Source of the DNA: Beroe forskalii | Taxonomy: Eukaryota > Ctenophora > Nuda > Beroida > Beroidae | Direction: 5' to 3' | Length of the DNA: 64,000 bases | Assembly (NCBI GenBank): GCA_011033025.1 | Contig: WFMF01000570.1 | Span: 1-64,000 of the forward strand | Shown: piece after piece, positions 1 through 64,000 of the stretch | Layout of the letters: each line of letters begins with the position of its first letter | Position numbering within the stretch: the first letter of the stretch is position 1 | Translations under genes and position numbers: made by a program | Notes under the pieces: model-generated | Databases searched by the model: none | The model's input: the letters and a program-made list of their open reading frames with translations, nothing else | What the model was told of the DNA's origin: nothing

Positions 1-3000
1 GCCAGTTTTCCTTTGTTTTCAAAAATAAAAACCCTATTTTTACCTCTCAAACAGTGATCCAGGACGTTCTTCATTTCTGGGCCCCCAAAGAAATAAAAGT
101 TTTGGCCGATTGAGCTGAAAAATTACGCCATCCATGGACGACCTGGAAGACATACCATACTTCAGAATCCAAAATCAGCCATTTTCTTTCTGTTATGGGG
201 GGTTAAAATCGCGTTTTTCGGCTTAAAACTGCCTTTTTTTCGCCCCTTACAAGGCGTAGATGTCTCATGGGTGGTCAAATAGAAGTGTATCTGGTCATAA
301 ATTATGCGCCTGAAACCACTGAACCAATGATATTCGCCAGTTTTCCTTTGTTTTCCTGTAAAATCCAAAACCCTATTTTTACCTCTCAAAACAGTGATCC
401 AGGACGTTCTTCATTTCTGAGGCACCCAAGATCCGAAATCGAAAAGCTTTGGCCGATTGAGCTGAAAATTTGCACGCCATCCATGGACGACCTAAGAAAG
501 ACATATCATACTTCAGAATCCCGAAATCAGCCATTTTCTGTCATTTATGTAGGGTTAAAATCGCGTTTTTCGGCTTAAAAACTGCCTTTTTTCGCCCCTT
601 ATTAGCGTATATGTCTCATGGGTGGTCAAATAGAAGTGTATCTGGTCATAAATTATGCGCCTGAAACCACTGAACCAATGATATTCGCCAGTTTTCCTTT
701 TGTTTTCCTGTAAAATCCAAAAAACCCTATTTTTACCTCTCAAAACAGTGATCCAGGACGTTCTTCATTTCTGAGGCACCCAAGATCCGAAATCAAAAAG
801 CTTTGGTCGATTGAGCTGAAAATTTGCACGCCATCCATGGACGACCTAAAAAAGACATATCATACTTCAGAATCCCGAAATCAGCCATTTTCTGTCATTT
901 ATGTAGAGTTAAAATCGCGTTTTTCGGCTTAAAAACTGCCTTTTTTCGCCCCTTATTGGGCGTAGATGTCTCATGGGTGGTCAAATAGAAGTGTATCTGG
1001 TCATAAATTATGCGCCTGAAACCACTGAACCAATGATATTCGCCAGTTTTCCTTTGTTTTCCTGTAAATCAAAAACCCTATTTTACCTCTCAAAACAGTG
1101 ATCCAGGACGTTCTTCATTTCTGAGGCACCCAAGATCCGAAATCAAAAAGCTTTGGTCGATTGAGCTGAAAATTTGCACGCCATCCATGGACGACCTAAG
1201 AAAGACATACCATACTTCAGAATCCCGAAATGAGCCATTTTCGTCTGTTATGGGGGGTTAAAATCGCGTTTTTCGGCTTAAAAACTGCCTTTTTATCTCC
1301 CTTTATTGGGCGCAGATGTCTCATGGGTGGTCAAATAGAAGTGTATCTGGTCATAAATTATGCGCCTGAAACCACTGTACCAATGATATTCGCTAGTTTT
1401 CCTTTGTTTTCCTGTAAAATCCAAAAAACCCTATTTTTACCTCTCAAAACAGTGATCCAGGACGTTCTTCATTTCTGAGGCACCCAAGATCCGAAATCGA
1501 AAAGCTTTGGCCGATTGAGCTGAAAATTTGCACGCCATCCATGGACGACCTAAGAAAGACATACCATACTTCAGAATCCCGAAATCAGCCATTTTCTGTC
1601 TTTTATGTGGGGTTAAAATCGTGTTTTTCGGCTTAAAGACTGCCTTTTTTCGCCCCTTATTGGGCGTAGATGTCTCATGGGTGGTCAAATAGAAGTGTAT
1701 CTGGTCATAAATTATGCGCCTGAAACCACTGAACCAATGATATTCGCCAGTTTTCCTTTGTTTGTCTGTAAAATCCAAAAAACCCTATTTTACCTCTCAA
1801 AACATTGATCCAGGACGTTCTTCATTTCTGAGGCACCCAAGATCCGAAATCGAAAAGCTTTGGCCGATTGAGCTGAAAATTTGCACGCCATCCATGGACG
1901 ACCTAAGAAAGACATACCATACTTCAGAATCCCGAAATCAGCCATTTTCTGTCATTTATGTAGGGTTAAAATCGCGTTTTTCGGCTTAAAAACTGCCTTT
2001 TTTCGCCCCTTATTGGGCGTAGATGTCTCATGGGTGGTCAAATAGAAGTGTATCTGGTCATAAATTATGCGCCTGAAACCACTGAACCAATGATATTCGC
2101 CAGTTTTCCTGTATTTTTCAGTAAAATCCAAAAAACCCTATTTTTACCTCTCAAAACAGTGATCCAGGACGTTCTTCATTTCTGAGGCACCCAAGATCCG
2201 AAATCGAAAAGCTTTGGCCGATTGAGCTGAAAATTTGCACGCCATCCATGGACGACTTAAGAAAGACATACCATAATTCAGAATCCCGAAATCACCCATT
2301 CTTCGTCTTTTATGGGGGTGAAAAGTCACGTTTTTCAGCCTGAAAACTGCCTTTTTTCGACCGTTATTCGATATAGAGGTCTCGAGGGAGCTGAAATAGA
2401 GGTGTAAGTGGTCATAAATTATGCACCTGAAACCACTGAACCAATGATATTCGCCAGTTTTCCTTTGTTTTCCTGTAAAATCCAAAAAACCCTATTTTTA
2501 CCTCTCAAAACAGTGATCCAAGCGTGTATTCATTTCTGAGGCACCCAAGATCCGAAATCGAAAAGCTTTGGCCGATTGAGCTGAAAATTTGCACGCCATC
2601 CATGGACGACCTAAGGAAGACATACCATACTTCAGAATCCCGAAATAAGCCATTTTCTGTCTGTTATGGGGGGTTAAAATCGCGTTTTTGGCTTAAAACT
2701 GCCTTTTTCGACCCTTTATTGGGCGTAGATGTCTCATGGATGGTCAAATAGAAGTGTATCTGGTCATAAATTATGTGCCTGAAACCACTGAACCAATGAT
2801 ATTCGCCAGTTTTCCTTTGTTTTCCTGTAAAATCCAAAAAACCCTATTTTTACCTCTCAAAACAGTGATCCAAGCGTGTATTCATTTCTAGAGGCACCCA
2901 AAATCCGAAATCGAAAAGCTTTGGCCGATTGAGCTGAAACTTTAAACGCCATTCATGGAAGACCTACGAAAGACATAACAGGCCTTGACAGAATTCCGAA

Positions 3001-3823
3001 ATCACCCATTCTTCGTCTTTTATGGGGGTGAAAAGTCACGTTTTTCAGCCTGAAAACTGCCTTTTTTCGACCGTTATTCGATATAGAGGTCTCGAGGGAG
3101 CTGAAATAGAGGTGTAAGTGGTCATAAATTATGCACCTGAAACCACTGAACCAATGATATTCACCAGTTTTCCTTTGTTTTCCTGTAAAATCTAAAAAAC
3201 CCTATTTTTACCTCTCAAAAACAGTGGTCCATGCGGGTCTTCATTTCTGAGGCACCTAAAATCTAAAAGATGTGCGCTTTGACTGAGAGCTGAAACTTTG
3301 CACGCCATTCATGGAAGACCTACGAAAGAAATAACAGGCCTCAGAATTCCGAAATCACCCATTTTTCGTCTTTTATGGGAGTGAAAAGTCACGTTTTTCG
3401 GCCTGAAAACTGCCTTTTTTCGACCCTTATTCGATATAGAGGTCTCGAGGGAGGTGAAATAGAGGTGTATCTGGTCATAAATTATGCACCTGAAACCACT
3501 GAACCAATGATATTCACCAGTTTTCCTTTGTTTTCCTGTAAAATCTAAAAAACCCTATTTTTACCTCTCAAAACAGTGACCCATGCGTGTCACTGAGGCA
3601 CCCAAAATCAAAAAGATGTGCGCTTTGACAGATAGAGCTGAAACTTTGCACGCCATTCATGGACAACCTTTGAAAGACATAACATGCCTCAGAATTCCGA
3701 AATCACCCATTTTTCGTCTTTTATGGGAGTGAAAAGTCACGTTTTTCGGCCTGAAAACTGCCTTTTTTCGACCCTTATTCGATATAGAGGTCTCGAGGGA
3801 GGTGAAATAGAGGTGTATCCCGA
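1..3823. repeat. Tandem satellite array, unit about 353 bp, about 11 copies
   Basis: The landmark GCCAGTTTTCCTTTG recurs at 1, 336, 687, 1042, 1392 (GCTAG variant), 1746, 2099, 2452, 2805, about 3162 and about 3516, a spacing of 350-358 bp. Two monomer types can be seen. Type A carries GGGCGTAGATGTCTCATGG. Type B carries CGATATAGAGGTCTCGAGG. The left copies are type A, the rightmost three are type B, and A and B alternate around 2280-2760, which suggests conversion or a higher-order unit. The array runs off the left edge and stops abruptly near 3823, about 290 bp before the first recognised exon of the MUN-domain gene, so it probably lies in an intron or the 5' flank of that gene. Open frames of 60-113 codons on both strands are by-products; 353 is not a multiple of three. 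Confidence 0.97.
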
Positions 3824-4115: not shown

Positions 4116-7100
4116 GACCTGGAACTGTACAAGTTTCGAGTTATCCCTGACGAGATGGTACGAAGTGTCCTAAACACCCTCAAGAGCATCACCTCCAAGA
4201 TCATCATGTTTGTGGAAAACTTCGTCACCTTCTTCTCGGAGGATCTCAAGAGTTGGTGAGAGGTGTTTATTCCTTATAAGGGCATCACGTGGGGGTATGA
4301 GTCCTTATAAGGGCATTACGTGGGGTATTATTCTTTATAATACCCCGACCACTGCTCATTCTTCAAATTAATTTCGAACATTTCTACATTACATGCTAGA
4401 TCTTCCTGAAACCAGGACATTCCAACAGGTACTCGCAGATAGACGATTCACTGATAAAATCCCTCTGTGAGAGCATCCTGTCCTTGTTCGAGGGGGACCT
4501 CAGGTTTGATCAAATTGATGGATAATAAACAGCTCTTGAGCAGTGAGAAGCAAAGTTTTAATTTTCTTAAATAACTTTTACAGAAACTTTCAAATAGAAG
4601 CTTGTTACACTATATCATACAAAAAAGAAAAGAAAAAGACTCAGATAACTCATTTATCTGACTTGAATTGCTCCCCCACTTTGGCCCTCCCCCGTTGTCT
4701 GGGATACCAAACTTGCCACCTGACTAAAATCCCGCCCCCAGGGACCTCCTGCAGTACCTGCCAACCTGCGAGGGAGTGTTTGAACTCTACCACACCCTCA
4801 ACAAGTTCTGTGATTCCATCCCCGCCCTGGCATTCGGCACTTTTCATCAGACCGGGCTCCACGATGCTTTCTTGGTGAGGTGTTTATTCCTTATAAGGGA
4901 ATCACGTGGGGGTATCAATCCTTGTAAGGTATAATGGGATTGTCTGAGTTCTGACATCCCCACCCTGGCATTCGGGACTTTTCATCAAACCGGGCTCCAC
5001 GATGTTTTCTTGGTAGGTTGCGAGTAGCGGCGTGGTATGATTCTTTCTTGAATTCTTGAATCTTCGTGGATTGCATAGCTGCGATTATGATAAACAAGGG
5101 CGGCAGCAACTTGAGCCAAACTTATAAAACCTTCCATGGGGGGGGGGGGCTGGAAAACAGGTCCATTGATCAGTGAACATATCTCAGTTTCACGTTCTGA
5201 TCCAAGTAGAGATAGAGTGTAACGATATCATGACAAATGCTGACCTGAGCTTCGATGCAGAGCTGTGGTATCTTCCACCAAGGTAACACTACCTATTCTA
5301 TATACTATTCTAAGTATTAAGTGCCAATATATAAAGCAATGATAATTTCCAAAATCCCAACAAGAAACATACCATACATATGGCATAATAATTACTCTCG
5401 AGAGCTTAAGAATTTGTCTATTTAATCAGAAATAAGACGTTTTCGTTGTTACAATTGTTACAAGATGTTCGTAACCACTCTACTCGACATTCGGCCTATT
5501 TCTGATTAAATTGACGAAGAAATATTGTACACACCATGCCTTTACAATTTGCTTTGGTGACACCATGTTGAATTCAGGGAGAGGTTTCCAGCCCCATATA
5601 TCAAGACATGCTGTAAGAGTGTAAGAGATCTCAACATCCAGCTATATAACTTCAGAAACTGGGTGGATAACTTAGAATGGCCCAACCCAGAGTACAGGTA
5701 AACCATGTTGAATATCATATTCTGTCTGAAATCTCGGTGAAAAAGTCTAGGAAGATGATTCTTTTCTTCTGACGCCATGAAGATTTCGAATCTGATAGAT
5801 TTGTGTTGAAACTTTGAAAGAAAACGGTTTTTTAAACATTCATGGTTCTTTTGATCAGTATATGCATGGCTTTTCAGGACATTATTCACGTTTTTCAGGA
5901 CATTATTCACGGATATGGTGAACGAGAAAACAAGACAGATCCTGGTGAAGTATAGCACGTACATCAGGGAGTTGATAGAAGTCAACATGAAGAATAAGAA
6001 GTAAGTCACATCTAAGTCACATGTAAACACAGCTAACTTCACTCAATTATTCGCTGTTCAGCAAATAATTGAGTTCGGAAATCCGTGTTTCAAGATTTCA
6101 CCTTCAAAGACCGTGATATCTTGAAACACGGATTTCACAAAGTTCATAATGCAGGTTCGGTGTATTCAAGAAATGAGAATCATTTCGAAATTTCAGAGTC
6201 GCGCGGCACCATGATTGTACGTGGTAACCATAATGCTAAATCAGTATCATGTACGTACAAATTGCGATCGTGTGGAAATTATAGGCGGCGTTTTCAAAAT
6301 TGGTTTCATAATAATTTGTCAAAAGATCAGATTGAGGCGATATAATTTTGGCTAAACACTCATATACTCACAGAGACATGAGTTGATCGAATCACTGAAA
6401 CTTTTGTATCTCCTGTTTTTTGTAGATAAAAATAATTCTGGAATATACAGTGATAAAGTCTGGATTGCGCTAATAAAAAACTCGATTTTACCGATCATGA
6501 CACGTACTCGAAAGAAATTGATAATGCAATTATACAACTCGCAAATTCAAGTAACCCAATATCCTTCACATAATAAATTAGACGGGAATATATATTTCCG
6601 GTTTACCACATGTTATGAGTTGGGGGTGGACGACGATCCCACGCTAAAATGATAAGAATTTACAGCTCAGAAATTGTTTAGGTACCACTGCTGCTCCTAG
6701 TTCTTGATTTCGTTCCAATTTGGTTTGCTCGTTCGGGTCAGCGATATTTGATCTGCTCGATATTTTAGTACTGACGATTGAAAGTTGTCGATTTTGTGTC
6801 CATTGTCACCATGACAAAAGAATATGACCGTCTTTCTGATGATGAAAACCACAAACCTCAAGAGAACAACGATTTGGAGGATGGGAGCTGCCCAGAACAA
6901 CCAGAAGAGAGCAAACTGATTGAAGGAGAAAAAGTGCAAGTGGAACAGATCATCAACAGGTAATTTCGATGTGAAATTTATGAGCTACTCTTAGTTTTTG
7001 ACGTATTGAAGCTCAGCGGATTATGAACATTTAACGCTCAGAATACGAGCGAAAATTGACTTAAAAAGTTGTAACTGAATCATGATACCTAATATGAAAC

Positions 7101-10100
7101 TGCCTTGTCCGTTCCAGGCTTGTTCTGCTCACAAGTGTATGATTGTTAGATTGTTGCGCTAAAATGCCTCTTGATGCCAAGATGCTATAACACAACTTCC
7201 AGCCAATATATTCTTCACTTCACGTTGTCGCAGGATAGTGGGAAACACTATGTCCAGGAAGTACTTGGGTCTGCTTCTCTTTGGGATCCTCCCCTACATC
7301 ACAAGTCCTCTTCTAGTCAGCATCCCCGTCTACGCAGGTTTGTCTAGAACCTTCTGACGCTCTCATTGGTGTCTATAATGCATAGACACTTGCCAGATCG
7401 GGAGCATATATTGGTCTATAACCCCATTCGGGCTACACCAGTACACCGTCGAAAGTATCCCACAATGGACCAGATAGGCGTGTGTCTATGTTTTTTAGAA
7501 CTGATCTGGGACTGCAGAGAGTTCGCGCTTGTAAACTACGATGATATAAACTACGATGATATATTGCTCTCTTTTGGAACTATAGGGATTGATAATATTA
7601 AATTCATCACACTTGGCGTACTACGCAGGTGAGATCCAGTACAAACAATGGGACTGCCTGTCCGACAAATGCCACACCCTCCTCTCCAACCACACCCTCT
7701 CCAACCTGACCACCTCCACCTTCTACACCCGCTCCACTCTGTGCTCCAACTCCCTCCAACGTGATGTGGACTTTGTGTGGACAGCCACCAAAACCAGCTA
7801 CGCAACTGAGTGGGATCTGATCTGTGATGAGGAGTACAAGGGAAGGAATCTCATGAGTTTCTTCTTTATCGGAGCTTTCTTGGGTGTCATGACGGGGACT
7901 GCTCTCTTTGATAACCTCGGGAGGAGGAACGTTACCATGGTGCTCCTAGTGATGGTTGCCTCGGCGACGCTGGCTAACGGTCTGATCCGCAGCTACACTG
8001 CCATGTTAGGACTGAGAGTGGTCCAGGGGTTCTGCTCCTTCATCGTGTTGTCCGGGGTACAACTCATGGCTATAGAGTTTACTCCTACAGGGCTTCGGAA
8101 CATAGCCACGGTGATATTATCCTGCTACTGGGCTTTGGGCTCCACTACTAGTTTAGGAGTGTGTTACGGGTTGCAGAGCTGGAGACACATGATCCTTGTA
8201 AAGGCCGGGATCATGTTTGCAACGTTCATCCCGATGTTACTAGCTCCTGAGTCACCCAGATTCCAACTTGTCAAGGGAAAAGAGAAAGATGCAAAGGACA
8301 CTTTCAAGAAAATGGCCGTCCTATTCAATAATCCGATAGATATAGATGCGCTGCAGTTTGAGTTCAAGGAATACCAAGGAAACTACTTCGGTCAGCTGAA
8401 AGATTTCGTGAAATACCCGGCGATGCTCAAGAACACCCTTCTGATATTCTTCTGTTACATGCTCCTGGCAGCGGTCTCCTACTCCCGGATGTATGGATGG
8501 AACAGTCTAGGAGTCAATGTGTATGTGAGTGTCCTGATAACCACTGTAATAGGATTATCAGCTACCTTCACCGGATACAAATACTTCATTGTGGAGTGGC
8601 TGGGTCGGAGAAAGGCCCTGGCCATCAACTTTGCCATCATGTCTCTCCTCCATCTGATCGGCATGATAAAAGTGCAACTCCCGGAAGGTTGGAGCTGGAT
8701 CCAAGTGATGCTGATGGTGTCTTCTCCCTTTCTCTCCTCCTGCTGGACCATCACCTTCCTCTTCGCTTCCGAGCTAGCTCCCACTTCTCACAGGGGTATG
8801 ATAGTGTGTCTCAACTCCGCTGCTGCTCGGGTTGGAGCCTTCCTGGCACCCTATCTCACTCTGCTCTACAATGAGATGGATATGAATTATGTGCAGGGGA
8901 TTCTAGCAGTGGGTCCGGCTATAGCAGCAGTACTGGCCTTCAGCTGCCCGGATACATCGAGGAGACCCATTCCTTCAACTCCAGAGGAAGTGGGAGAGTT
9001 GAGTGAGATCGAGGAGAAAGGGGGGAAGGTTTGAGTGAGATTGAGGAGAAGGAGGGGAAGGTTTTAGTGAGATTTGGGGATATTGACGATATTGGGGAGG
9101 CTTGAGTGACAAAAAGAAGGACGACAGATTGAGATACGAGATATAATTTGGTAACTTATAAATATGATTTGAAATGGAACGAATTTGAGGAACTGCAGTA
9201 TTTTGAAGTCTCATTGAGCACATCATTTCGGCAATGAAGAAGTGATGATGCTGAGCTATTTCAGACTCTTGTTTTCAGAAGCTCAACCTTATTTAAAACA
9301 ATATATTTTGATATTCTCATCTGAAGCCGTGACCAAAATTCCGTGCTTGATGCAATTATTTTACTGGGAATGTTTTTATGTTTAAATTTATGCCATTTAT
9401 TATTTTATCCATGAATTGTACAATATGCTTATATAATCAAACAAATTTAGCATGTGTTATGATTTCTACCGGGCTAAAAAGCATGGGAGTATGTGGGATT
9501 GCCAAGATTGAGTTGTCCAATGACGCAAGCTCGGAGGGGAATCTATCATCGATAGACAAGGAGTGAGAAAATTAACAGGGTCCATGAATCATGATGATGT
9601 TAAACCCGGATCATATCCAGCCGGCCATGCTTGCACCCACCCAATTACCAGTTAATCAGTATTCATTATTCATAAGTGTCTAATCACTGGTTGGACACTG
9701 GCTGGAATAGCCACAAGACCCACTGGCTCAGGCCACACTGCACAATGGCCATCCTTGCATCATTGGTCCTAGACTACTAGAATGTTGTCATGGAAATCAA
9801 AGCACAACAGAGACCTCATGACATATATTGAACACGTGCAACATATCATTTGACTCATGGACCTCACTAACAGATAACTTTTATTCCTGATTATGACGTA
9901 ACTCTGAACAGCCCATTGTCTGAGGTCCAACACACCGACACATCACTTCCATTGTCATTGGAAACGGAAATCACGGAACAATGTGTGAGATGTGACGTAA
10001 TAGCCTCCAAGAAACTCATCCTAACACCCCGCGGTGGTTGTTATTTATTATTTCTTTTATCGTACCTTTGTTATTTGTAATCGCTCTATCAGTTTACATA

Positions 10101-51400: not shown

Positions 51401-54400
51401 TGAGGAAATTGTTTAGGGAATGTAAGCGATTTAAATATATCATAAACATTCCTATTGATAATTTCTCGTATATGTGGTTATCACAACATAGTAGTGTTTA
51501 TTAAAATTAACAAGACAATATATATAAACACTATGCATAATCTCTTATAAACACTGGTAATAACAACTAATTGGGTACCAGAGCCAAGTATTAAACGCCG
51601 CGCGCGAGAAATAGGCGGTTATCAACATCATCAACTCACTACATTATGATATGATAATGACGTCATCCTACCCGCCTATTTCTCGCGCGCGTCGTACAAT
51701 GCACTAAGTATTGTACGTTTAAACGTTACTATCGATGCCATGCTACGCCAAATAGTGGTTAGTGGTTGTCTTGGAAACCAGTCACTGGTACTATGTTTAC
51801 TGCTATTCAGTACATTGTGACGTGGGTTTTACTATGTAAGTATGTATTAAGATTCGTCCACAAAGGTGGTTAAAGGAGGGGAGTCATTGTCAGAGTTTAG
51901 AGTATGGAATGTAATTGTTGATTGCTCACCATGTTGAGTTTAGCGCGCGCACGTCTTTGAAAATGTTGAGCTGGTACTGGCTTTGGAAATCCCATGAAAA
52001 TGCTCATGACATGAAAAGTGTTCCCGGTAACTTTTAGTAAGTGAGATAGTAAGTTCTGGTGAGAATGTTGAGTGAGAATGGTGAGTTATTCCCACTACCA
52101 TACGAACAAATATGGTAGTTGCAAATAAAATTATGGTTATCGAAACATCTTGACATTGTGAGCATATCGCCTGACGATCATAATATACGGATAAATGCGT
52201 ATAATTTGAAATACCAGTGAAATTTCTCCGCTGTATCAACGTCAGACGAGTCCCATCTTCCCATGTAATTTCTTAATTTAGATGTTAGTTCTCTGATCAT
52301 AATATAATCTGAATCTTTGAGCCTAACGAATGTTACAGATAATCATCCGTAGAATTCCATCAAATTATCATCATATATTGGTTTATTACTTTGCATGCAC
52401 GCAGAATATTGCCAATTTTGGCAGTGGACAGGGAGATTTAAGGCCATTTAAGACATTTGTCAAGCTCCAGCTTTTGGGGGATTTATCAACCATATGAACG
52501 TTATATTCTGTCTACACCGTACAGACAGTTGCAGGTCTGACGTTAAAGAATCATCAATTTCCCAGAATTGTGAGTAGCGAAGTTAGTTCTTTTGGCTGAA
52601 ATCTGACTTATGCACATGAATCCTTGCCAAATTTGAAATTATGGGGATCGTCTCAAAAATATTCAAATATAATCATATCGACCTGATATTAGCCACTGTT
52701 TTCAATTTTCAAAACATGAATCCCTGCCAATGTATATGGATCAGCTCAAAAGAATATTCAAACATAATTACATCGACCTGATAATACCCATTGTGTTCGT
52801 AGTTCAAAGGGGAACAGCTCAATACGTCAATACAAATTTTGAGAGCACTAAAGCACCATAATATATTTATTTATAGACTTTTGTTATTAATATTTGTCTT
52901 GTAACGTGTCGTGTGGTATTCATTGTGCTGAATGCTGTGTATCATTCCCCATTATTAAACTCCGCGCGCGAAAAATAGCGACTTATTTTCAACAATTTGG
53001 CAGCGCGCACAATGTTAATGAAGTCATTTAACGACCGCCTATTTATATTCTGAGCGCATATCATATAAAAGATAAATGAATTTGAATAGTAGGTAGGTAA
53101 CTCTGTCGCCATGTTATCGGGGGTGTTGTGACGTAAACTTGAAACACATATAACTTTAAATACTCATATTCCCATTTCAATGATTGCCAGTCAGGGTTAT
53201 ATATTCCCTTCTAAGTGCTACTTTACGAAGAGCTGGCTTATAAACGATATTAATGTTATATGAACGTCACTTTTCTGGAGAAATTATAAGTCACGTTATT
53301 GCCATTTTCTTGTAATCGTCGTGTCCCGACCTACAGTCTACGCCGCGTAATATCTAGGTGTTTGCGGCGTATTGTACGCTTTTTTCCTTGCTAACAATGC
53401 GGCGCTAAGGGCATGCGTTGCGCGGCGTAACCTCTAGGCCGGGACACCACTGTAAGAGAAAGTAACAGAAAGACACAACTCTTTCACCTACACAAGCCAC
53501 CAGATGTTTTATGAAAAGGTTCTCCATGTGAATGGGTATTATTACATCAAGAGGCGTAGTATGTCTTACCGGTGTAGTAAAAGTATAGTATTGTTAGACT
53601 ACTAGAGTTCCTCTATAGTAAAGTGAAGTGTTGTAAGGCTAAGAGTTCCTCTATAGTATGTACTGTGCTACATTGTACGCTTCTATGGGACTGCCAGCTG
53701 GCTTACACATTGGAATAAAGTTCCAGAGTAGTGACTACCTGGATGAATATTGTACCTAGTGTAAGGGTGCAATGTGGGTGGTTGGTCCGGTAAAGAGTCT
53801 CATGTTTATATCTTTTTAGTTATCAGCTTTAAGTCCCCTTTGTAATGGTTAATCTCCAGTCCCCACACCTTATTTCAACCCCCTACAGGGCCAAGGAGAC
53901 ACTTATTTTAAAACCTCAGTGTTCCAAAACCACTGCTAATCTACAATCCCCCACACTCACACGTATAATCTAACCTCCCTCCCTCCCCCACACTCCCTAA
54001 TCTAAGCTCCCTCCCTCCCCACACTCCCTAATCTAACCTCCCTCCCTCCCCACACTCCCTAATCTAAACTCCCTCCCTCCCCACACTCCCTAATCTAAAC
54101 TCCCTCCCTCCCCACACTCCCTAATATAAACTCCCTCCCTCCCCACACTCCCTAATCTAAACTGCCTCCCCCCCTCACACTCCCTAATCTAAACTCCCTC
54201 CCTTCCCTACACTCCCTACTCTAAACTCCCTCCCTCCCCCACACTCCCTAATCTAAACTCCCTCTCTCCCCCACACTCCCTAATCTAAACTCCTCCTCCC
54301 CCACACTCCCCTAATCCTCCCTCCCTCTAAACTCCCCACACTCCCTAATCCTCCCCTCCCCCCCCCCTAAACTCCCTCCCCCTCCTAATCTAACCTCCCT

Positions 54401-57400
54401 CTAATCCCCACACCCTCCCCCTAATCTAAACTCCTCCCCCCACACTCCCCCAAACTCCCTTCCCCCACACCCCAATCTAAACCCTCCCTCCCCCACACTC
54501 CCCAATCAAACTCCCTCCTAACACCCCCAATCCCCTCCCTCCCCACACTCTAATCTAAACTCCCTCCTCCCCACACACTCCTAATCTAAACTGCCTCCCC
54601 CACTCCCCAATCCCTCCTCCCCCTAATCTAAACTCCCTCCCCCCACACTCCCCCCAATCTAAACTCCCTCCCTCCCAAACTCCCTAATCTAACTCCCTCC
54701 CTCCCAAACCCCTCCCCCTCCCTCCCCCACTCCCCTAATCTAAACTCCCTCCCTCCCCACACTCCCTAATCTAAACTCCTCCTCCCCACACCCCCTAATC
54801 TAAACTCCCTCCTCCCCACACCCCCTAATCTAAACCCCTCCTCCCCCCACACCCTAATCTAAACTCCCTCCCTCCCCACACTCCTAATCCCCTAATCTAA
54901 ACTCCTCCTCCCACACACTCCCTAATCTAAACTCCCTCCCTCCCCACACTCCCACTCCCTCCCCTCCCCACTCCCTAATCTAACCTCCCTCCTCCCCACA
55001 CCCTAATCTAAACTCCTTCCCTCCCCCACACTCCCTAATCTAAACTCCTCCTCCCCACACTCCCTAATCTAAACCTCCCTCCCTCCCCACACTCCTAATC
55101 TAAACTCCCCTCCCTCCCCACACTCCCTAATCTAAACTCCCTCCCCACACTCCCTAATCTAAACTCCCTCCTCCTCCACACTCCCCATCTAAACCCCACA
55201 CTCCCCAACTCCCAATCAACCTCCCTCCCCCACACTCCCCAATCAACCTCCTCCTCCCCACACTCCCTAATCTAAACTCCCTCCCTCCCCCACACTCCCT
55301 AATCTAAACTCCCTCCCTCCCCCACACTCCCTAATCTAAACTCCCTCCTCCCTAATCTAAACTCCCTCCCTCCCCCACACTCCCTAATCTAAACTCCCTC
55401 CCTCCCCCACACTCCCTAATCTAAACTCCCTCCCTCCCCACACTCCCTAATCTAAACTCCCTCCCTCCCCCACACTCCCCTAATCAACCTCCATCCCCCC
55501 CACTCCCTACTAACACCATCTTCCCCAGACGCAAATAGACTACGCTAAGACCTACATAGCTCATGTCGGCGTGGTCGGGGTCGGGATTATCCTCGCTATT
55601 GCTCTCTTCTTCGGTTTCCTGCTCTGTTGGTGCTGCATGTTGTGTTGCAACCGCTCACAGAAGGTTCGTGCCAGTTTCAATGATTCAACTGTCTAAGATT
55701 GCATGAATTGCGACCGGAATCATGATTCGGCAATCGGTATTTTGTATTTTTCTTTTAATTCTTTGAACTTTTGTATGGTCAATGAGTCAAAGAAGTAAGC
55801 ATTCGTTATGTTTGAGTTTGGGGCTGCAATCGTGTCGCGGGATTTTCTCCACAATTCCCATGAAAATCCTACCCTTTCTTCCAGCAAACATCGACAATGG
55901 CGATGTGGCGTATGATATGGGGAGCTTTTCTAATAGTCCTTCTAGCTGCTAGCGTGTAAGTACAATAAACGTTCATCTAATCCACAACAAACCATGTTTA
56001 TGACAACTTTACACTCGTCCTATTTTTCATCAAACTAAAAAAAACAAATCCCTTTCCTTCACTCATCTCATCCAATAGCGACCTTTTCAGCAAGGAATGA
56101 AGACCTTTTGCACGTGACCTATCAGTATTAACATTGATTATGTACGCGTTTTCGCATAATATTTATGCTATGCTCAACATTCTGTTGTGATGTAAATTGA
56201 GAAGCAAAACTGTTTTGCTTATTAGATTGTAGTGATAACGGTGCATGTTTTTAGATTGTTTGTAGTCACAAATCATCATTACGATAGTGAAAGGCATTAG
56301 ATCATCATGTACTATGGAAGCAATTTCCTTTGTCATCTAATCGTAGAAATAACTCAATTATTGCCACTACTTAACGTAAGGCGCGTGTTTATTTCTTTGG
56401 AGTATTCGGCGCAAAATGCTGTTATGTTAAAGCAGAACGGCGCGCGCAGACGCGCGCAATGTAACGATCGAACGGATCGGAACGCAACGGAGCAATTTTC
56501 GTTAATTGACCTTATGAATTAATTGTAAACTTGTATCAACTACCAATATTGTACATTTTATCCAAGGGAAGTTGAAAGTTCCATTGAAACACGAATTTAG
56601 GACAACAACCGCTCTGCCAGAGAGGTATGCACCCTGCGCCCATTGCTAACCGGGCATTTCCTTCATATCCCCAGGGCTGGGTTGTTGATCCTTGCTCTCT
56701 CCGGATCAGAATTAACGAAGTTAGAAACAGCATCCAACAGCGCAATTGATACACTTGGTGATGGGATTGTAGAGTACCTTGAAGAGACTGATGAGGTAAG
56801 TTGTAGGGCTTGCTCAAGTCATGCATTTTGATGGAATGCCATTTGATCAGTGATAACTAATTATTTAAATTAACTCAATATTTTGGACAACACGACTTAG
56901 TTATTTGGGTCCTGTATAACACATCAGTCCTTTGAATGGAGTTGATCGACCGACCAATTCCATTCGATCGACCGATTTGTTATGCACTTTGCAAGTTGCG
57001 TTTTTATATAACTCTTCGTATCCCCGCAGCAAATCGAAACACTGAAAACTAATCAAGTAGAAACCCTGTTTACGGAACTAGGAACTCTATTTGACAGTAA
57101 GTTCTTGTTTCTAAATCCTGAAATAGAGAGTGAAATCTTCATCCAAAGTTATGATATATTATGTTTCGTACTTTATTCCATTGGCATTGAGAAATAATAT
57201 GAGGATATAGCGAGTTTTGAAATTTTGCACTCATCTGCCATTTGTCGTGATACTGATACCTTAGGAGGTGTATAAATAAGGTCGCAGTTTATAAAGAAAA
57301 AGTAGCATATACATGGTACCACATAGTTCGTAAATTTCACAATTCTCTAACTCGCAGCACCTGTGTTATTCTAACCATCCAACCTTTTCCACAGCTGCCG

Positions 57401-60400
57401 TCTCGACCTCTGCTACGAATGTTAAGGGGATCAGTACTCCCCATAATGTGGATACGGAAGTCACGAACGTTGTGACCGCTCTAAACGACCTGAATTCAGG
57501 TAAGATGCTGATTATAGTTAATTGATACCCGTGCCAATTAGCAACGGAGGTTTTTCTTCTGAGATCGGCCACAGTAAAAGCCACTCTTCGTTTGACCGTC
57601 AAATCGATTAGGGTTTCGTCCGAGGCAGGGTTCTTTGGTAGATACCGAGGCCGTGGACTCGGCCGATCTATGTGCAAATGTTATTGCAAATGTTATTGCA
57701 TATAATAACAGTTTATAATGCAAGTTGAATTCAGTTTTAAAGTTAAACCGAATCTGGCCTTATAATTCCATGCGAACTTCGCAGTTGTGGTTGACGCTGA
57801 GACCAAGGTGACGACAATTTACGACCTTGTGGTTCGCTTGGAAACGGACATCACATCGATCAACAGCAATATGGATATTTGTAAGACGAAGTTCGATGAC
57901 TGTGATGCGGCAGGGGGTAATTGTTACGATAACGCCGGGATTACAGCAGATACGTTCGATGATAAGTTCGATACGGCCGATGTAAGAGGATTGTTTCTTC
58001 ATTTCCATCCACCATTGGAGTGCAAATTTGAAAAATTTTCAGTATGGAGAAGAATCAGTTTCAAGCAGCCTTAAATCTTTATTTGGCCATCAAACAACTT
58101 GTTCATTGTTCAAACTTTCAAATGACTGACTTTTAACAATGTTTACACGGATCTATACATTATTTTACTCCTCGTACTCATAAAATTTCCCTGAACCAGC
58201 TCAAAAAATCCGAACTGGAAACAACGAAGGATCAGTTGACAGCAGCAAAGTCATTCGGTGGGAAAACACTGGCTGAGTGGGCAACTGAGGTTCAGGACGA
58301 ATGGGATAATCTGGATCAAACGATCAATACACAAGCTGCTTCCGCTAAGACAGGTGACTGATTCATTCATTCATACATTCATACATTCATACATTCATAC
58401 ATTCATACATTCATACATTCATACATTCATTCATTCATTCCTTCATTCCTTCATTCATTCATTCATTCATTCATTCATTCATTCATTCATTTTTTCAATG
58501 AATGGATAATTCACCATTGTTTTGTACCCAGGTATTACTCACATGCCTAGCCAGATCTTTTCCCCCATAGATTTCGAGACCACGTTAAACGACGCTCAGA
58601 CACAGTTACAGACCCTCCTCAATGATGATGTTCAGCAGCAACTCAAAGACATGAGCAACACCATTTCCACTGACAAGGATAAGTATAAGAAGCAACTCTC
58701 CGCTACTATCAAGTACCTCAAGTGAGTATATACTGCCGAGTGCCGATGATGTTTTTGTCATTCTCGTTATGAGATCATTTACTTAACGGTCGCCACGATT
58801 GATAATTTGTCACGATTGGTTATCGGCCACTAAACGATTATCTATCGGTCACTTAAAGATTAGTTATCGGTTACTTAAAGATTAGTTATCGGTCACTTTA
58901 CACACTTCAGGGACACTGCCATGCTGAAAGAGGGTGACGACACAGATGTGCCAGACTTCATTGTGGATATATTCTCCAACGAGATGGCTCAATACGGGCT
59001 CTTTGGTGGGTTGTTGTTGGTTATTGATTGGGGGCGGGATTGACCGTCCGTTTTGTCCGTATTGATAGGAGGCATTACGGTCCTTTTTTCCAGAAATCCA
59101 AAGAACGGGGATGGTCACTCCCACAAGCTTATGAAAATTATATGATGGTTAACGTGCATACCAGGTGTTTTTTTATCGAAAATCTTACTCGATATTGCAA
59201 CTGATAAGCGATGTAGTGATGTACGGATGTTGTTTTTTCTTTCAAGGCGATTCTAGTAATTTCTGAGCAATGATTCCCTCTAATTCCATCTAACGATTCC
59301 TCTAATTTCAGCGGTATTCGTGTTGGTGTGTGTTATCCTTGGACTCCTAGCGCTTACTGTTATCATCGGGTTGTTCAGTACCGTCTTTGGCTGCTGTAAG
59401 GTGAGTAAGGCAATGTTGCACCGTGATCTTAGCTCTGAAAGGTTGGAAGAAGGAATTATTAATCGGGAATATGAAGTAGGAATAGCAACATCTTGGTGCT
59501 GATACCACTCTGTTACCAGGGTTGCTATAGCAACACATCCTGGTACTGACACCACTCTGTTACCAGGGTAACATGTGTTGCTATAGCAACTTACCAATCT
59601 GTTACAGGCGAATAACGACGTACCACCCACGGAACGTAGTACGGGTTGCTGTGGCACCCTGCTAATGTGCACCAGTTACTGCTCCGTTACCAGGGTAACA
59701 TGTGTTGCTATAGCAACATACCATTCTGTTACAGGCGAATAACGACGTACCACCCACGGAACGTAGTACGGGTTGCTGTGGCACCCTTCTAATGTGCACC
59801 AGTTACTGCTCCGTGATCCTGTGCGCTATTTCTACTCTTATTGCTGCTATCCTGATTACTATCGTTATGTTGGAAGAGGGAACGTGTAAAGACTACAACG
59901 ACGGAAAACTCCTTGATTCGGTAGGTAGTTTCAGTATTTGATGTTAAATTCCTGTTTAGATCATGTTTAATAAATGTTAAGTTCATGTTAAATTCATGTT
60001 TAGTTCCTGTTTAGTTCATGTTTAGTTTCTGTTTAATTGTTTTTAATGTGCCCTAAGTCAAAGTTTGCTCAGAATCAAACTTAGATGTTTCAAATTTGCT
60101 GATTTTTCGATGGATATCCTCAGGAGGATCAGAGGAATGGTCCTCTTGGGGTAATCGACGATCCTTCAGTGTGCCGAGTTGTGCATTTCTAAATTTGTAT
60201 CATTTTATATTACTTTCCCATAACTTTCATCGGAATTAACACCAACACTTCCTCCCTCTTACAGATCGATACGATTTCCAACGATTTCGGTGCTAATCTC
60301 GACCTGAACAAGATGATCGGGGACCTGCTACAGCTGGAAGATGACGGCTTCACCCTTTCCAACTTCATGAACGAATGCAAGGACAGCAAGACACTGTTTG

Positions 60401-63178
60401 CGGCTCTTAATCTTGAGAAGAGTTCCAAACTCTTTGGTACTTTCAGTATTGACAGCCTTCAGCAAGAAGTCGACGACGTATGTGCGAATTTGTTCAAAAA
60501 CTCTTTCTAACATTCTAACAAAAATGCTTTCAGGCCATTATTTTGCAGAGATCTGAGGGAGATATTTTTGAAAGTTCTGCAATAAAATCTCAGTCACGTT
60601 CGTTTGATACCAAGTTTGATATCAATGGCCCGTATTATTCATTTGACAATGACCTATCAACCCTCGTTAACAATATCGTGACGATTTCTGGATCCTGCGG
60701 ATGGTTAAATTTGTACGTGCGTGATACTAATTTCAAGTATACCCACGTACCTACTTTCAGAATGATTCTATTTCTCGAGGTCGCGACACCTGCGTAATTA
60801 GAACTTATCAACATTACTATTTCTGCAGCAAATAAACGCTATGGACGTCGATGACATGTTGAGTGGGATTACCATCGATCTGGAGTTCATAAGTGCATCG
60901 GACAAAGCGGCCCTGGAACAGACTAAGACCGATCTGTCCAACGATTATGATAAAACCAGTTTGCAGAGCGTTCGGACTGAACTTGATCAAGGTAAACAAT
61001 CATACCATGTAATATGGTATGTTCATCGTTAAGAAAGTTAAATAACCATTTATGGGCATTGGGCATTTGGAAATTTAGGTGTTATCGAAGCAAAATTCAT
61101 CGGTATTTGACTTCTAAAATTTTTGGATTACATATATTTCTATTATTGGTTGCAAGGTTGACACCACCCTGATCCAATTCTTCCAGATCTATTAACGGAT
61201 GACACCACTTTGACACCAATCTTTCAGCCCTTCTACCGGATGACACCAATTTGGCACCAATCTTTCAGCCCTTCTTACGGGTGACACCACTTTGACACCA
61301 ATCTTTCAGATCTATTACCAGATGACAGCACTTTGACACCAATCCCCGGTAAAATAGACGAAATCATCACTAATGCGGGGGGTACAGATACATATGGCTT
61401 GACAGACTGTAAAACTGCAGTTAACAGCATCATAAACACAAACGATAAAACTGATGGTGTCAAGGAGACTGTGGTAAGATAAGGCGACTCGTTTAACCTT
61501 ATCCTTTTATCGATAATTACGTTCTCAATGATTGCAAACTTGATACTTATTCGACTCGGACTCGATACGTTTCCAAGTTAGTTTTGAAAGAAACACAATG
61601 TAAGTTTAATCTGATTGTCCTCACATTTAAACTCGTATGTCCCTCAGGATGATCTTAAGACTTCACTTGATGATCTGTTAGCAATGGACCCTGACCCACC
61701 AACGGCTGCTGGTGTGAGTGATTATTATAATAGTTTCTACGATATCAATTATTCTCATCATAACTAAATGCAGAATGCAGATGTTTGATTAACAATTGAA
61801 AACACAAATCACCATGAATAATCAATAAATAGTGATAACGTAGAGTGATTGATTGTGTTTTCATCATCAAATTCTAATGAATGATAAATTCTACGATATC
61901 ATAATTGCTAGAGTTCTCTGAATCATAATAATAAAATGTATCCCACAATCTAAATCATGATGCAGAATACGGATGCTTGACTACGTATGGTAATTATAAT
62001 TGTGCCGTCGTCATCAAATTCTAAAGAATGAAAAAATTCAATTCCTTCTATATCAAATTCCTACAAATGTCTCCTCTTTCAGACTGAAATTGACAACATC
62101 GTCAATGCGCTGACTAACATCGAAGCATCACTGACTGAAGCAGTGGTTAAAGACATCATCAAGACAGAGATCGAGACAGCTCTCTCCAGTGCTAGTTCCT
62201 CAGTAACCCAGTTTATGGACTTCTTGTTCCAGGTTACTGGAGTGGGGCGATATTTATAAGATACATAGACACGCACCTGTCGGGTCCATTTTGGGATACT
62301 TCCAGAGGGCGTAAGCCCGAGGGATGTATCCAGTTTTGGCTCGAGCCCGTAGGGCGAGGGTCTAAACCAATATGGACCCGATCAGGCAAGTGTTTATATA
62401 TTATAGACCCGCATGGAAACGTCAGAGGGTTCTATAACTAGCATGTTTCACGAAGAACAATTTCTGATTTGCATCGGTAAAAGAAATAGTTCAGTAAAAA
62501 AAATAGTTACATCTTTTAATATGTTGTAAAAACTGTCAATGATCATTGAACGTTCACCTTCCTTGTCAGTAATTCCTCGAATTTGAATATGAAAAGTAGT
62601 GTTGTAAAGTTTTAAACTTTTACCAGGAGTTCCAGACCACTATTCTCAACTGCCAGCCCCTATCAGCAACCTATGAAACTGTGATGAACCTCGGCTGCGA
62701 TGGAATCTTCATTCATTTGGTAAGTAGGGTTTTGGTAGAATGTATCCAAATCTAAAGGAGTTACTTCCAAATTAACCGAAATTAATTTACTACCAATTAC
62801 CATTCACCATGCGTTGAAAACTGTCCATTTTATAGCACACTGATTACATTGACCAATCGGTGTGCTGATTGTTTTTTAGCTTTCAAATAGAATTATTCCC
62901 CCTTCATTGCCATCTCTCCCCCATCTAGACGCTGGTGTATTGCGGGCTATCCCTGATCGAGAAACCCCCCCTGATTATTCCCCTTCTCATTACCCCCCAC
63001 CCCGTTATTCCCCTCTCCATTACCATCTCTCTCCCATTTTGACGCTGGTGTACTGCGGGCTATCCCTGATCGGGATCTCCCTGCTTTTCTACATGTGCGT
63101 ATCCCGGTGTCTGGCCCGGTATTTCATCAAGTTCAGTCAGCTTCATCCCGATGACGAGGGGATGCAGGAGAGGGGATG
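33443..63178 (+). CDS. Prominin (CD133-like) pentaspan membrane glycoprotein, 21 exons
   Basis: Exons: 33443-33527, 34462-34560, 34748-34782, 55529-55663, 55885-55955, 56675-56795, 57030-57096, 57395-57499, 57785-57981, 58200-58353, 58532-58721, 58911-59005, 59312-59400, 59735-59920, 60265-60477, 60829-60991, 61322-61473, 61648-61713, 62083-62232, 62627-62719 and a last one ending 63178. Phase holds throughout; the first twenty give exactly 822 codons, and with the last about 868 residues, the usual prominin length. Signal peptide MKYFALLCIATVISTTKSA; TM1 with following cysteine cluster (CWCCMLCC); TM2 (IWGAFLIVLLAASV); long helical loop; TM3 (FVLVCVILGLLALTVIIGLF); TM4 (SVILCAISTLIAAILITIV); second helical loop; NCQPLSATYETVMNLGCDG before TM5 (LVYCGLSLIGISLLFYMCV). 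Prominins organise cholesterol-rich membrane protrusions and photoreceptor or ciliary membranes. The cytoplasmic tail continues past 63178 (phase-2 donor). The acceptor of the last exon is disturbed. Confidence 0.9.
33740..34415. repeat. 676-bp near-perfect foldback (inverted repeat) in prominin intron 1
   Basis: TTAAGGGGGCCGGGGGGGTC at 33740 is mirrored by the complementary GACCCCCCCGGCCCCCTTAA ending at 34415. The match continues inward through GGTCGATTTTCGG / CCGAAAATCGACC, CTAGCCGAAGTTATGAATT / AATTCATAACTTCGGCTAG and AGGCCTCAGAAGTGAAAATA / TATTTTCACTTCTGAGGCCT, to a centre near 34070-34085. Arms are about 330 nt with few mismatches. It ends 46 bp before exon 2. Confidence 0.95.
35332..35375. 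repeat. Perfect 21-bp hairpin
   Basis: CATCTGAGCCATGGTAGACCT is followed after two bases (TT) by its exact reverse complement ending in CAGATG. It could form a cruciform in DNA or a tight stem in RNA. Confidence 0.95.
35887..35960. repeat. Hairpin with arms of about 35 bp
   Basis: CCCATGTAACGTTACTTA and TAAGTAACGTAACATGGG are inverted around a CTTG loop, and the outer parts AAGTAAAACATTT / AAATGTTTTACTT also pair. Confidence 0.9.
36360..36480. repeat. Cluster of TGTACA/GTACAGT motifs
   Basis: ACTGTAC, TGTACAGT and related palindromic motifs occur about ten times in 120 bp, making alternative stem-loops. Confidence 0.7.
38977..39050. repeat. Decayed copy of the short palindrome family
   Basis: AAAAAGGCGGTTAATCGTCG at the left and GATAATGACGTCACTC near the right match the elements at 22737 and 51600, but the right terminal repeat is lost. 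Confidence 0.5.
40380..40525 (+). repeat. Minisatellite-like repeat (AAGTTACGTGGGTTCAAACT)
   Basis: Four imperfect copies of a unit of about 36-40 nt containing AAGTTACGTGGGTT. Confidence 0.75.
40536..40677. mobile_element. 142-bp MITE-like element, inverted repeats of about 55 bp
   Basis: CACCACCAAAACCGTTGGAC at the left pairs with GTCCAACGGTTTTGGTGGT at the right. The inner arm GGGTTTGGATGTGA pairs with TCACATCCAAACC. The centre is about 30 bp. Confidence 0.85.
42087..42260. mobile_element. 174-bp MITE-like element ending AGACCTGTTCTAGACAGG
   Basis: AGACCTGTTCTAGACAGG at the left and CCCTGTCTAGAACGGGTCT at the right are inverted repeats. The interior is a second palindrome built from ATTGCTCGAGCAAT and TACCCGAGCTATTGCTCG steps. 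Confidence 0.85.
44165..44490 (+). repeat. Direct duplication of about 70 bp, 260 bp apart
   Basis: CCGTGCATGTCCCAAATAAC..GTGTCGTCTTACACATTA at 44177-44240 recurs as CCGTGCATGTCCCACTGACG..GTGTCGTCTTACACATTA at about 44430-44470. Both contain TGACGTCA. Confidence 0.8.
48864..48998. mobile_element. Short palindrome family member flanked by a 26-bp direct repeat
   Basis: The element at 48888-48971 (AAAATAGGTGGGTAGGATGA ... ACCGCCTATTTCTTCCTAC) is bracketed by two exact copies of a 26-bp sequence beginning GCACAATGTTAGACCCGTGT, at 48864 and 48973. The direct repeat is longer than a usual target-site duplication. Confidence 0.8.
49054..49125. repeat. TGACGTCATTATC palindromic fragment
   Basis: GTGACGTCATTATC and TGATGACGTCATGG face each other across 30 bp, like the core of the 22737 and 51600 elements. 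Confidence 0.5.
51596..51702. mobile_element. Best-preserved member of the short palindrome family
   Basis: CGCGCGCGAGAAATAGGCGG at the left pairs with CCGCCTATTTCTCGCGCGCG at the right. The interior holds GATAATGACGTCATCC and CATCAACTCACTAC, shared with the 48888 copy. Confidence 0.85.
52965..53047. repeat. Decayed member of the short palindrome family
   Basis: CGCGCGCGAAAAATAGCGAC at the left and AACGACCGCCTATTTAT at the right match the 51596 element ends; the core is changed. Confidence 0.55.
53318..53450. mobile_element. 133-bp MITE-like element with GTGTCCCG(A/G)CCTA ends
   Basis: GTGTCCCGACCTACAGTCTA at the left and the reverse complement of the right end, GTGTCCCGGCCTAGAGGTTA, align, and both continue into CGCCGCG. 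Confidence 0.85.
53940..55515 (+). repeat. C-rich minisatellite, unit about 31 bp, about 1.6 kb
   Basis: Units of ACTCCCTAATCTAAACTCCC plus TCCCTCCCCAC repeat about 45-50 times, with length variation in the C runs. It ends about 15 bp before the acceptor of the TM1 exon (55529), so it supplies that intron's polypyrimidine-rich end. Confidence 0.97.
57225..57362 (+). repeat. Decayed dispersed repeat copy
   Basis: CGTGATACTGATACC, CATGGTACCACATAG and TTCTCTAACTCGCAGCACC occur in the same order as the blocks of the 31317 and 60700 copies. Confidence 0.5.
58361..58495 (+). repeat. CATT/CATA microsatellite
   Basis: About 34 tetranucleotide repeats (CATT with a middle run of CATA CATT alternation), directly after the donor of prominin exon 10. 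Confidence 0.97.
59480..59816 (+). repeat. Tandem duplication including a partial copy of prominin exon 14
   Basis: A unit of 127 bp is duplicated: GGCGAATAACGACGTACCAC with its CTGTTACAG acceptor is at 59608 and again at 59735. The first copy runs only to ACTGCTCCGTTACC and in frame reaches a TAA at the start of the second copy, so only the second copy yields a full exon. Shorter CTCTGTTACCAGGGTTGCTA repeats lie to the left. Confidence 0.92.
60700..60795 (+). repeat. Dispersed repeat family copy in prominin intron
   Basis: AAATTTGTACGTGCGTGATA, then CCACGTACCTACTTTCAG, then TTTCTCGAGGTCGCGACACC. It lies 34 bp before exon 16. Confidence 0.7.
61160..61345 (+). repeat. About 52-bp tandem repeat running into prominin exon 17
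   Basis: Four units of the type GATGACACCACTTTGACACC..AATCTTTCAG..CTTCTACCG. The last unit has lost its TTTCAG and carries the acceptor TATTACCAG|ATGACAGC of exon 17, so the first codons of that exon (DDSTLTPIPG) are repeat-derived. Confidence 0.85.
62880..63065 (+). repeat. Duplicated start of the last prominin exon
   Basis: ACGCTGGTGTATTGCGGGCT at 62929 (preceded by a good acceptor CCCATCTAG) and ACGCTGGTGTACTGCGGGCT at 63042 (preceded by CATTTTG, no AG) are 113 bp apart. The upstream copy diverges after CTGATCG and its frame hits TGA at 63040. Confidence 0.92.
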
Positions 63179-64000
63179 GTAAGTTTCTGTGTGTTGATTG
63201 TAATGGTCTTGATTTGCATTAGATTTAGTCTAAATTAAGTTAAAATATCAGACTCGATTTAGTCCAAATTAGAATAGATTAGACTTAATTGAGACTAAAT
63301 AAGACTTCTCACTAAATCCATAGTTCATGAAATAAATAATATTATGATCAACAACTCTCTCGTATTTGAATTTCTACCATGTGTCAGACATATTCCTTGG
63401 TTGATGGTTTACTAGGAATATGGCGTTTTGTTACGTAATCCCTATTCGGGTGTTAGAATACTTTCTGGTCTTTCCCACTGAATGTCGGTCCAGCATTTTA
63501 TTTATTCACATTCCTCGCATGAAATTTGTAGAATAACAAAGGTATATATCTTCTTTTTTCTGATCATGTGTGTTTTTAACAAAAACGAAAGATTACCTTC
63601 CAAAGATTCCTCTTACAAAGCAGCAACACTCAATGGAGATGAGTTTTGCATTATTCCTCTCCAAGTTTGAACCCTATCATTTTGAAATATCTTGCATCTA
63701 GACAACGACTTGCAGTGATCGTGCACATATTATGATATGGTCCCTTGTGTGCGCATGGATCGATAAAGACGCGCAATTTACTTTCGATGAAATTAATGTC
63801 GAATGTGCAAAGAATTGCGCGTTTTTATCGATTCTTTATTTTATCGGTCAATGTACACACCTGTGTGTGACAGCATCGGCTCAAAATTCAAATGATTATG
63901 GTGTCCGTCTCATCATGAGCTTTTTTTCAAGCTCCTTTCTTTGCCCACCTTTGAATCTGTGTTCTATGAATCCCAGGGCCCATATTTTCTACAAAAACTT
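63179..64000. other. Prominin intron to window edge
   Basis: Follows the phase-2 donor at 63179. No further exon was recognised. It contains a hairpin at 63750-63832 (TCGATAAAGACGCGCAATT / AATTGCGCGTTTTTATCGA). The tail of prominin should lie beyond the edge. Confidence 0.6.

Follow-up and report, generated by a model that had tools for sequence, protein, structure and literature searches.

How the exon that encodes the fifth transmembrane region (TM5) of a prominin gene in the ctenophore Beroe forskalii acquires its start is the question raised by this locus. The window, that is, the whole stretch of DNA analysed, covers positions 1 to 64,000 of contig C659, which is 100,739 bases long and belongs to a 216-Mb genome. 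The initial annotation had proposed that the start of this exon is duplicated and that the copy leading into TM5 has lost its acceptor, a situation tentatively attributed either to a new protein segment of about 54 residues or to a damaged or misassembled allele.

The gene model on which this question depends comprises the following features:

55529 to 63178, + strand: prominin gene, 18 exons traced from TM1 to TM5 (joined frame, Pfam PF05478, five hydrophobic regions)
62627 to 62719, + strand: exon q, last exon before TM5, with donor GTAAGT (score 10.7)
63042 to 63178, + strand: exon r, TM5 plus following residues (paralogue at C692:564448-564567)

Once joined, the 18 exons give one uninterrupted frame, whose 785-residue product matches the Prominin family (PF05478) with an E value of 7e-44 and 150.5 bits against a cut-off of 34.3. 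Members of this family have five transmembrane regions, and five hydrophobic regions are found by hydropathy in the joined protein (residues 6-42, 49-83, 357-396, 408-446 and 734-765). A comparison of the 785-residue protein with solved structures gave no match at E up to 1. All 18 exons are followed by GT donors and 17 of them are preceded by AG, the exception being exon r, which begins after ATTTTG; this regularity, together with the open frame, indicates that the gene looks maintained. In addition, its unique coding sequence is free of frame-breaking consensus errors. The exons other than r show no difference from known prominin (PF05478); the TM5 exon boundary is the point at issue. Exon r had been regarded as the last exon of the gene, a designation that is only partly sustained: the unspliced frame does stop at once after it (TGG TAA), but a GT donor follows position 63178 and exon r might therefore not be the final one. 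When exons past 63178 were sought with the tail peptide of the paralogue, no convincing match appeared in positions 1-100000 of C659. Another prominin match lies elsewhere in the genome in an uninterrupted, apparently intronless frame of 815 residues (G000:C647:649716-650816).

A satellite of 354-bp units in 10.9 copies occupies the contig end (window 1-3819), and a pyrimidine-rich array of a 31-bp unit repeated 50.8 times (window 53966-55503) ends just 5' of the TM1 exon without including its start (55529). On the 3' side of the TM5 exon, long inverted arms recognized by eye at about 64200-67480 of C659 could belong to a transposable element. Separately, the mitochondrial contig of the assembly has a GC content of 17.5% and carries a divergent COX1 gene in which TGA is read as tryptophan. 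Two RNA libraries from B. forskalii, with some 175 million read pairs apiece, are described in PMC6991124.

The boundary between the exon q-r intron and the TM5 exon is organized as follows:

62880 to 63041, + strand: stretch of 162 nt that follows the AG at 62879 and stays open in the frame of TM5, corresponding to the 54 residues proposed
62898 to 62962, + strand: distal copy (intron end plus exon start), with a TAG acceptor at 62928, out of frame and leading to a stop
62974 to 63022, + strand: 15-bp pyrimidine-rich units in 3.3 copies, between both exon-start copies
63011 to 63075, + strand: proximal copy, contiguous with TM5, with TG at 63040-63041 in place of AG

The duplication of the exon start is thus confirmed, as two 65-nt copies spaced by 113 nt that are 88% identical. 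They differ at 8 of 65 positions, six of them among the 31 intron bases and two among the 34 exon bases. Likewise, the copy joined to TM5 does lack an AG, its boundary reading ATTTTG followed by ACG, and the upstream copy does retain an acceptor whose use leads out of frame. In the paralogue (C692), with 79% DNA identity to the TM5 exon (C692:564448-564567) and 90% identity over TM5, the same exon begins at the same residue after CAACAG (CAACAG followed by ACACTGG), and position 63042 is therefore the ancestral exon start. The paralogue is also closer to the proximal than to the distal copy (4 versus 6 differences in the 34 exon bases); the paralogue shows the proximal copy to be the true exon start. 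A genome-wide DNA search with positions 62620-63180 (simple repeats skipped), aimed at a second haplotype or an intact allele, recovered the window and the paralogue only.

Duplications of this kind are not confined to TM5. Two other exons of the same gene carry them at their acceptors:

59555 to 59814, + strand: exon k acceptor duplication, 127-bp unit repeated 2.0 times with 96% matches, proximal CAG kept
61196 to 61344, + strand: exon n acceptor duplication, 41-bp unit repeated 3.6 times with 85% matches, proximal CAG kept

The homologue of exon k in the paralogue (G000:C692, L009) is flanked by arrays on both sides, an acceptor array of a 40-bp unit repeated 8.3 times (5091-5419) and a donor array of a 52-bp unit repeated 33 times (5588-7329) in which the donor reads GTGAGT. 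The presence of such arrays in other genes was assessed in a non-random sample of 49 exon loci on 26 contigs, made up of 30 myosin loci (the 30 best of 78 matches), 18 kinase loci (picked for their exon-like appearance among 150 listed) and one of 19 ABC-transporter matches; the counts refer to 49 of the 50 loci fetched, L085 being left out since its assumed exon interval falls between two matches. A direct repeat covers the acceptor edge in 8 of the 49 loci and the donor edge in one of them (p 0.03), counts that are approximate because exon edges were taken from profile matches, with acceptors read by eye and some adjoining loci sharing flanks. Six of these eight are boundary duplications (L041, L060, L072, L075, L077 and L081), all with a proximal CAG. 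The other two (L047 and L048) represent one whole-exon duplicate and were not scored as mirages; the same duplicate also accounts for the single covered donor edge, leaving donor-side boundary duplications at 0 of 49. Acceptor coverage was not above the background of the upstream flanks (12.1%, p 0.38) and donor coverage was not below that of the downstream flanks (6.4%, p 0.37), so no process aimed at acceptors is claimed; within the exon matches, direct-repeat coverage is 3.4%. In L077 (G000:C858:279700-280876) a 61-bp unit in about eight repeats bears both the acceptor and the start of a kinase exon, and L047/L048 (G000:C225:1041609-1042105) are adjacent copies of a single myosin-head exon that share about 82% identity and could be alternative exons.

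Boundary duplications therefore recur in the Beroe genome among the loci sampled; as they affect two other prominin exons, the paralogue and additional genes, they suggest a repeat process that acts repeatedly and not an event special to TM5. The TM5 feature itself belongs to the 'mirages', tandem duplications of minisatellite type that span an intron-exon boundary, and comprises a pyrimidine-rich intron end and the first 34 nt of the exon. What sets it apart is the state of the splice site. The proximal copy holds a canonical site (CAG or GT), as read from the sequence, in 10 of the 10 other arrays, TM5 being the sole one of the 11 examined that lacks it.

The remaining acceptor options were evaluated with a matrix built from 24 sites of the prominin gene and its paralogue, 7 of which belong to the paralogue and were assigned by eye; left out in turn, the known acceptors score between -2.9 and 11.3, and 23 of 24 end in CAG. 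Ten AGs lie between the exon q donor and 63042 (62724, 62727, 62738, 62757, 62760, 62835, 62879, 62890, 62928 and 62961), and none was found between 62962 and 63041. The highest scores are those of 62835 (3.8), 62757 (3.3) and 62928 (1.7), followed by 62890 (-1.4) and 62879 (-1.8), with the other five at -4.1 or below; the TG at 63041 reaches -1.7. The sites at 62835, 62879, 62890 and 62928 all end in TAG. Two further arrangements were discarded: retention of the intron, in which the frame, read by eye, hits a stop after the exon q donor, and a new canonical intron between the TM5 copies of the type described in a potato RdRp gene, given that no GT-AG intron can end at the second copy when no AG exists between 62962 and 63041.

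The use of the AG at 62879, which would add 54 Pro/Tyr-rich residues outside the membrane just before TM5, has in its favour that this is the only canonical acceptor that joins the normal donor to TM5 in frame without a stop (162 nt, 54 codons), and that the length of its open stretch is unusual for the gene: among the other 16 introns, 6 contain an in-frame open AG and none extends beyond 18 codons. The acceptor had been described as strong, a description that its low score and TAG ending contradict, since it exceeds only 1 of the 24 known acceptors, is surpassed by 129 of the gene's 349 other AGs and takes fifth place among the ten AGs of its intron. When sequences are resampled with the base-to-base steps preserved, moreover, 18% of them are expected to have a stop-free frame of 54 codons, and 47% if any of the three frames is accepted. 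The insert, part of which is the exon start in a shifted reading frame, contains two 30-bp units whose five codon differences are without exception nonsynonymous, and its 54 residues matched no Pfam family at E up to 0.1. The case for a new segment is thus weak, with no positive sign of coding: the frame and its canonical in-frame route are real, the acceptor is poor, composition can explain the openness and signs of coding constraint are lacking, and an insertion through 62879 is accordingly held to be doubtful. Pairing the acceptor at 62928 with a donor located 4 nt past the normal one (after 62723) also restores the frame, giving an insertion of 39 residues in a joined sequence that is open into TM5, but a donor scoring 2.4 would have to replace the normal one at 10.7, which makes this arrangement extremely improbable.

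A different outcome would follow if the loss of the AG were real and common, so that 62928 or 62835 served instead and a frameshift or early stop preceded TM5, as in a loss-of-function allele or a decaying paralogue. The three best-scoring AGs of the intron, including 62757 at 38 nt from the donor, all lead to stops, and 62928 has 14 pyrimidines of 17, equal to the highest value among the 24 known acceptors; in the human cases described in PMC2374985, acceptors mutated from AG to TG switch to neighbouring AGs. The protein made through 62928 would carry at its end a hydrophobic stretch (Kyte-Doolittle value of 1.82 for the best 19 residues), taken as an effect of pyrimidine-rich codons. Against a common loss, the other prominin exons are open and have GT-AG sites, while the paralogue, so similar over TM5, allows redundancy without showing it; this explanation is unlikely. 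The ordinary protein could still be made if the TG at 63040-63041 worked as a non-canonical acceptor, an idea encouraged by its context, which without positions -2 and -3 scores 4.3 and so falls between the limits of 0.1 and 10.1 set by the 24 known sites, and by the TG acceptors documented in human genes. Nevertheless, the human TG sites of that account are never the sole site and have an AG within 28 nt, whereas the AGs closest to this TG, those ending at 62961 and 63131, lie at distances of about 80 and 90 nt, and such usage is very improbable.

The reading preferred here, to which a probability of roughly one half is given, is that the TM5 boundary is wrong in the consensus sequence or defective in one allele and that working transcripts join 62719 to 63042; the weights placed on all readings are judgements. 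According to this proposal, the duplication would be a side effect of a repeat process that operates in introns, the distal copy a by-product that plays no part in the protein, and the missing proximal AG a defect of the consensus sequence or of one allele at a repeat-prone boundary, with working transcripts probably using an AG absent from the assembled sequence. A fixed loss of the AG should damage the gene, because human AG-to-TG mutants, as reported in PMC2374985, use other AGs and TG is never the only site there. It is because such damage is at odds with the intact state of the other exons that a defect is favoured. Opposed to a defect are the absence of frame-breaking errors elsewhere in the unique coding sequence and the failure of the genome search to reveal an intact allele. 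Furthermore, the eight differences between the copies mean that they have diverged, which makes a real mutation plausible and counts against a consensus error. Of the two outcomes initially envisaged, the duplication and the missing AG stand as real features of the sequence, and the damaged or misassembled allele is, as a matter of judgement, the favoured one.

The importance of these arrangements lies in the spare acceptors that boundary-spanning repeats place beside real ones, a proposed route to intron gain. About one in eight acceptor edges of the 49 sampled loci, and no donor edges, bear a boundary-spanning repeat, and this genome could be used to ask how splicing makes its choice when sites have been copied and with what frequency the copies alter the protein. 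TM5 would be an instance in which the true splice site fails. A bolder proposal, quite improbable on present evidence, is that acceptor-spanning minisatellites are frequent enough in this genome to be a standing source of new exon beginnings and that the proximal TM5 acceptor decayed because the transcript had switched to an AG further upstream, with a gain of 54 residues derived from repeat and shifted exon reading. None of the results demonstrates that a new protein segment arose.

Several known systems resemble the one described here. In human segmental-duplication genes, internal tandem repeats at exon-intron boundaries are reported to alter gene structure (PMC2812944); they share with TM5 the minisatellite units at such boundaries, and differ in being described as variable, found in recent paralogues and supported by transcripts, whereas the ctenophore case is known from genomic sequence. 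In the potato RdRp gene, as reported in PMC4974935, a tandem duplication across an intron-exon boundary led to the gain of an intron ending at the downstream acceptor. Intron end and exon start are likewise duplicated in tandem at TM5, with the difference that its downstream copy has no acceptor. The closest parallel is offered by amphioxus, where the Adh3 gene and the globins BflGb6 and BflGb9 contain mirages described as minisatellite-like tandem duplications of intron-exon boundaries (PMC3087553). According to that report, their units range from 10 to about 160 bp, those of BflGb6 are 81-100% identical, both acceptor and donor sides are affected and many repeats bear AG/GT signals; RT-PCR suggests that they do not interfere with splicing, and one mirage was aberrantly assembled in the draft genome. 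As in amphioxus, the TM5 unit spans the boundary, with 31 intron and 34 exon nucleotides, and tandem copies lie beside the true exon, two at exon r and 3.6 at exon n. Unlike the amphioxus mirages as reported, the host is a ctenophore instead of a cephalochordate, the proximal copy at exon r has no AG and the evidence is genomic. No report of a ctenophore mirage was found in the literature searched (one library). Boundary duplications of the mirage kind are thus already known from amphioxus, and the TM5 case is a further example, in a ctenophore.
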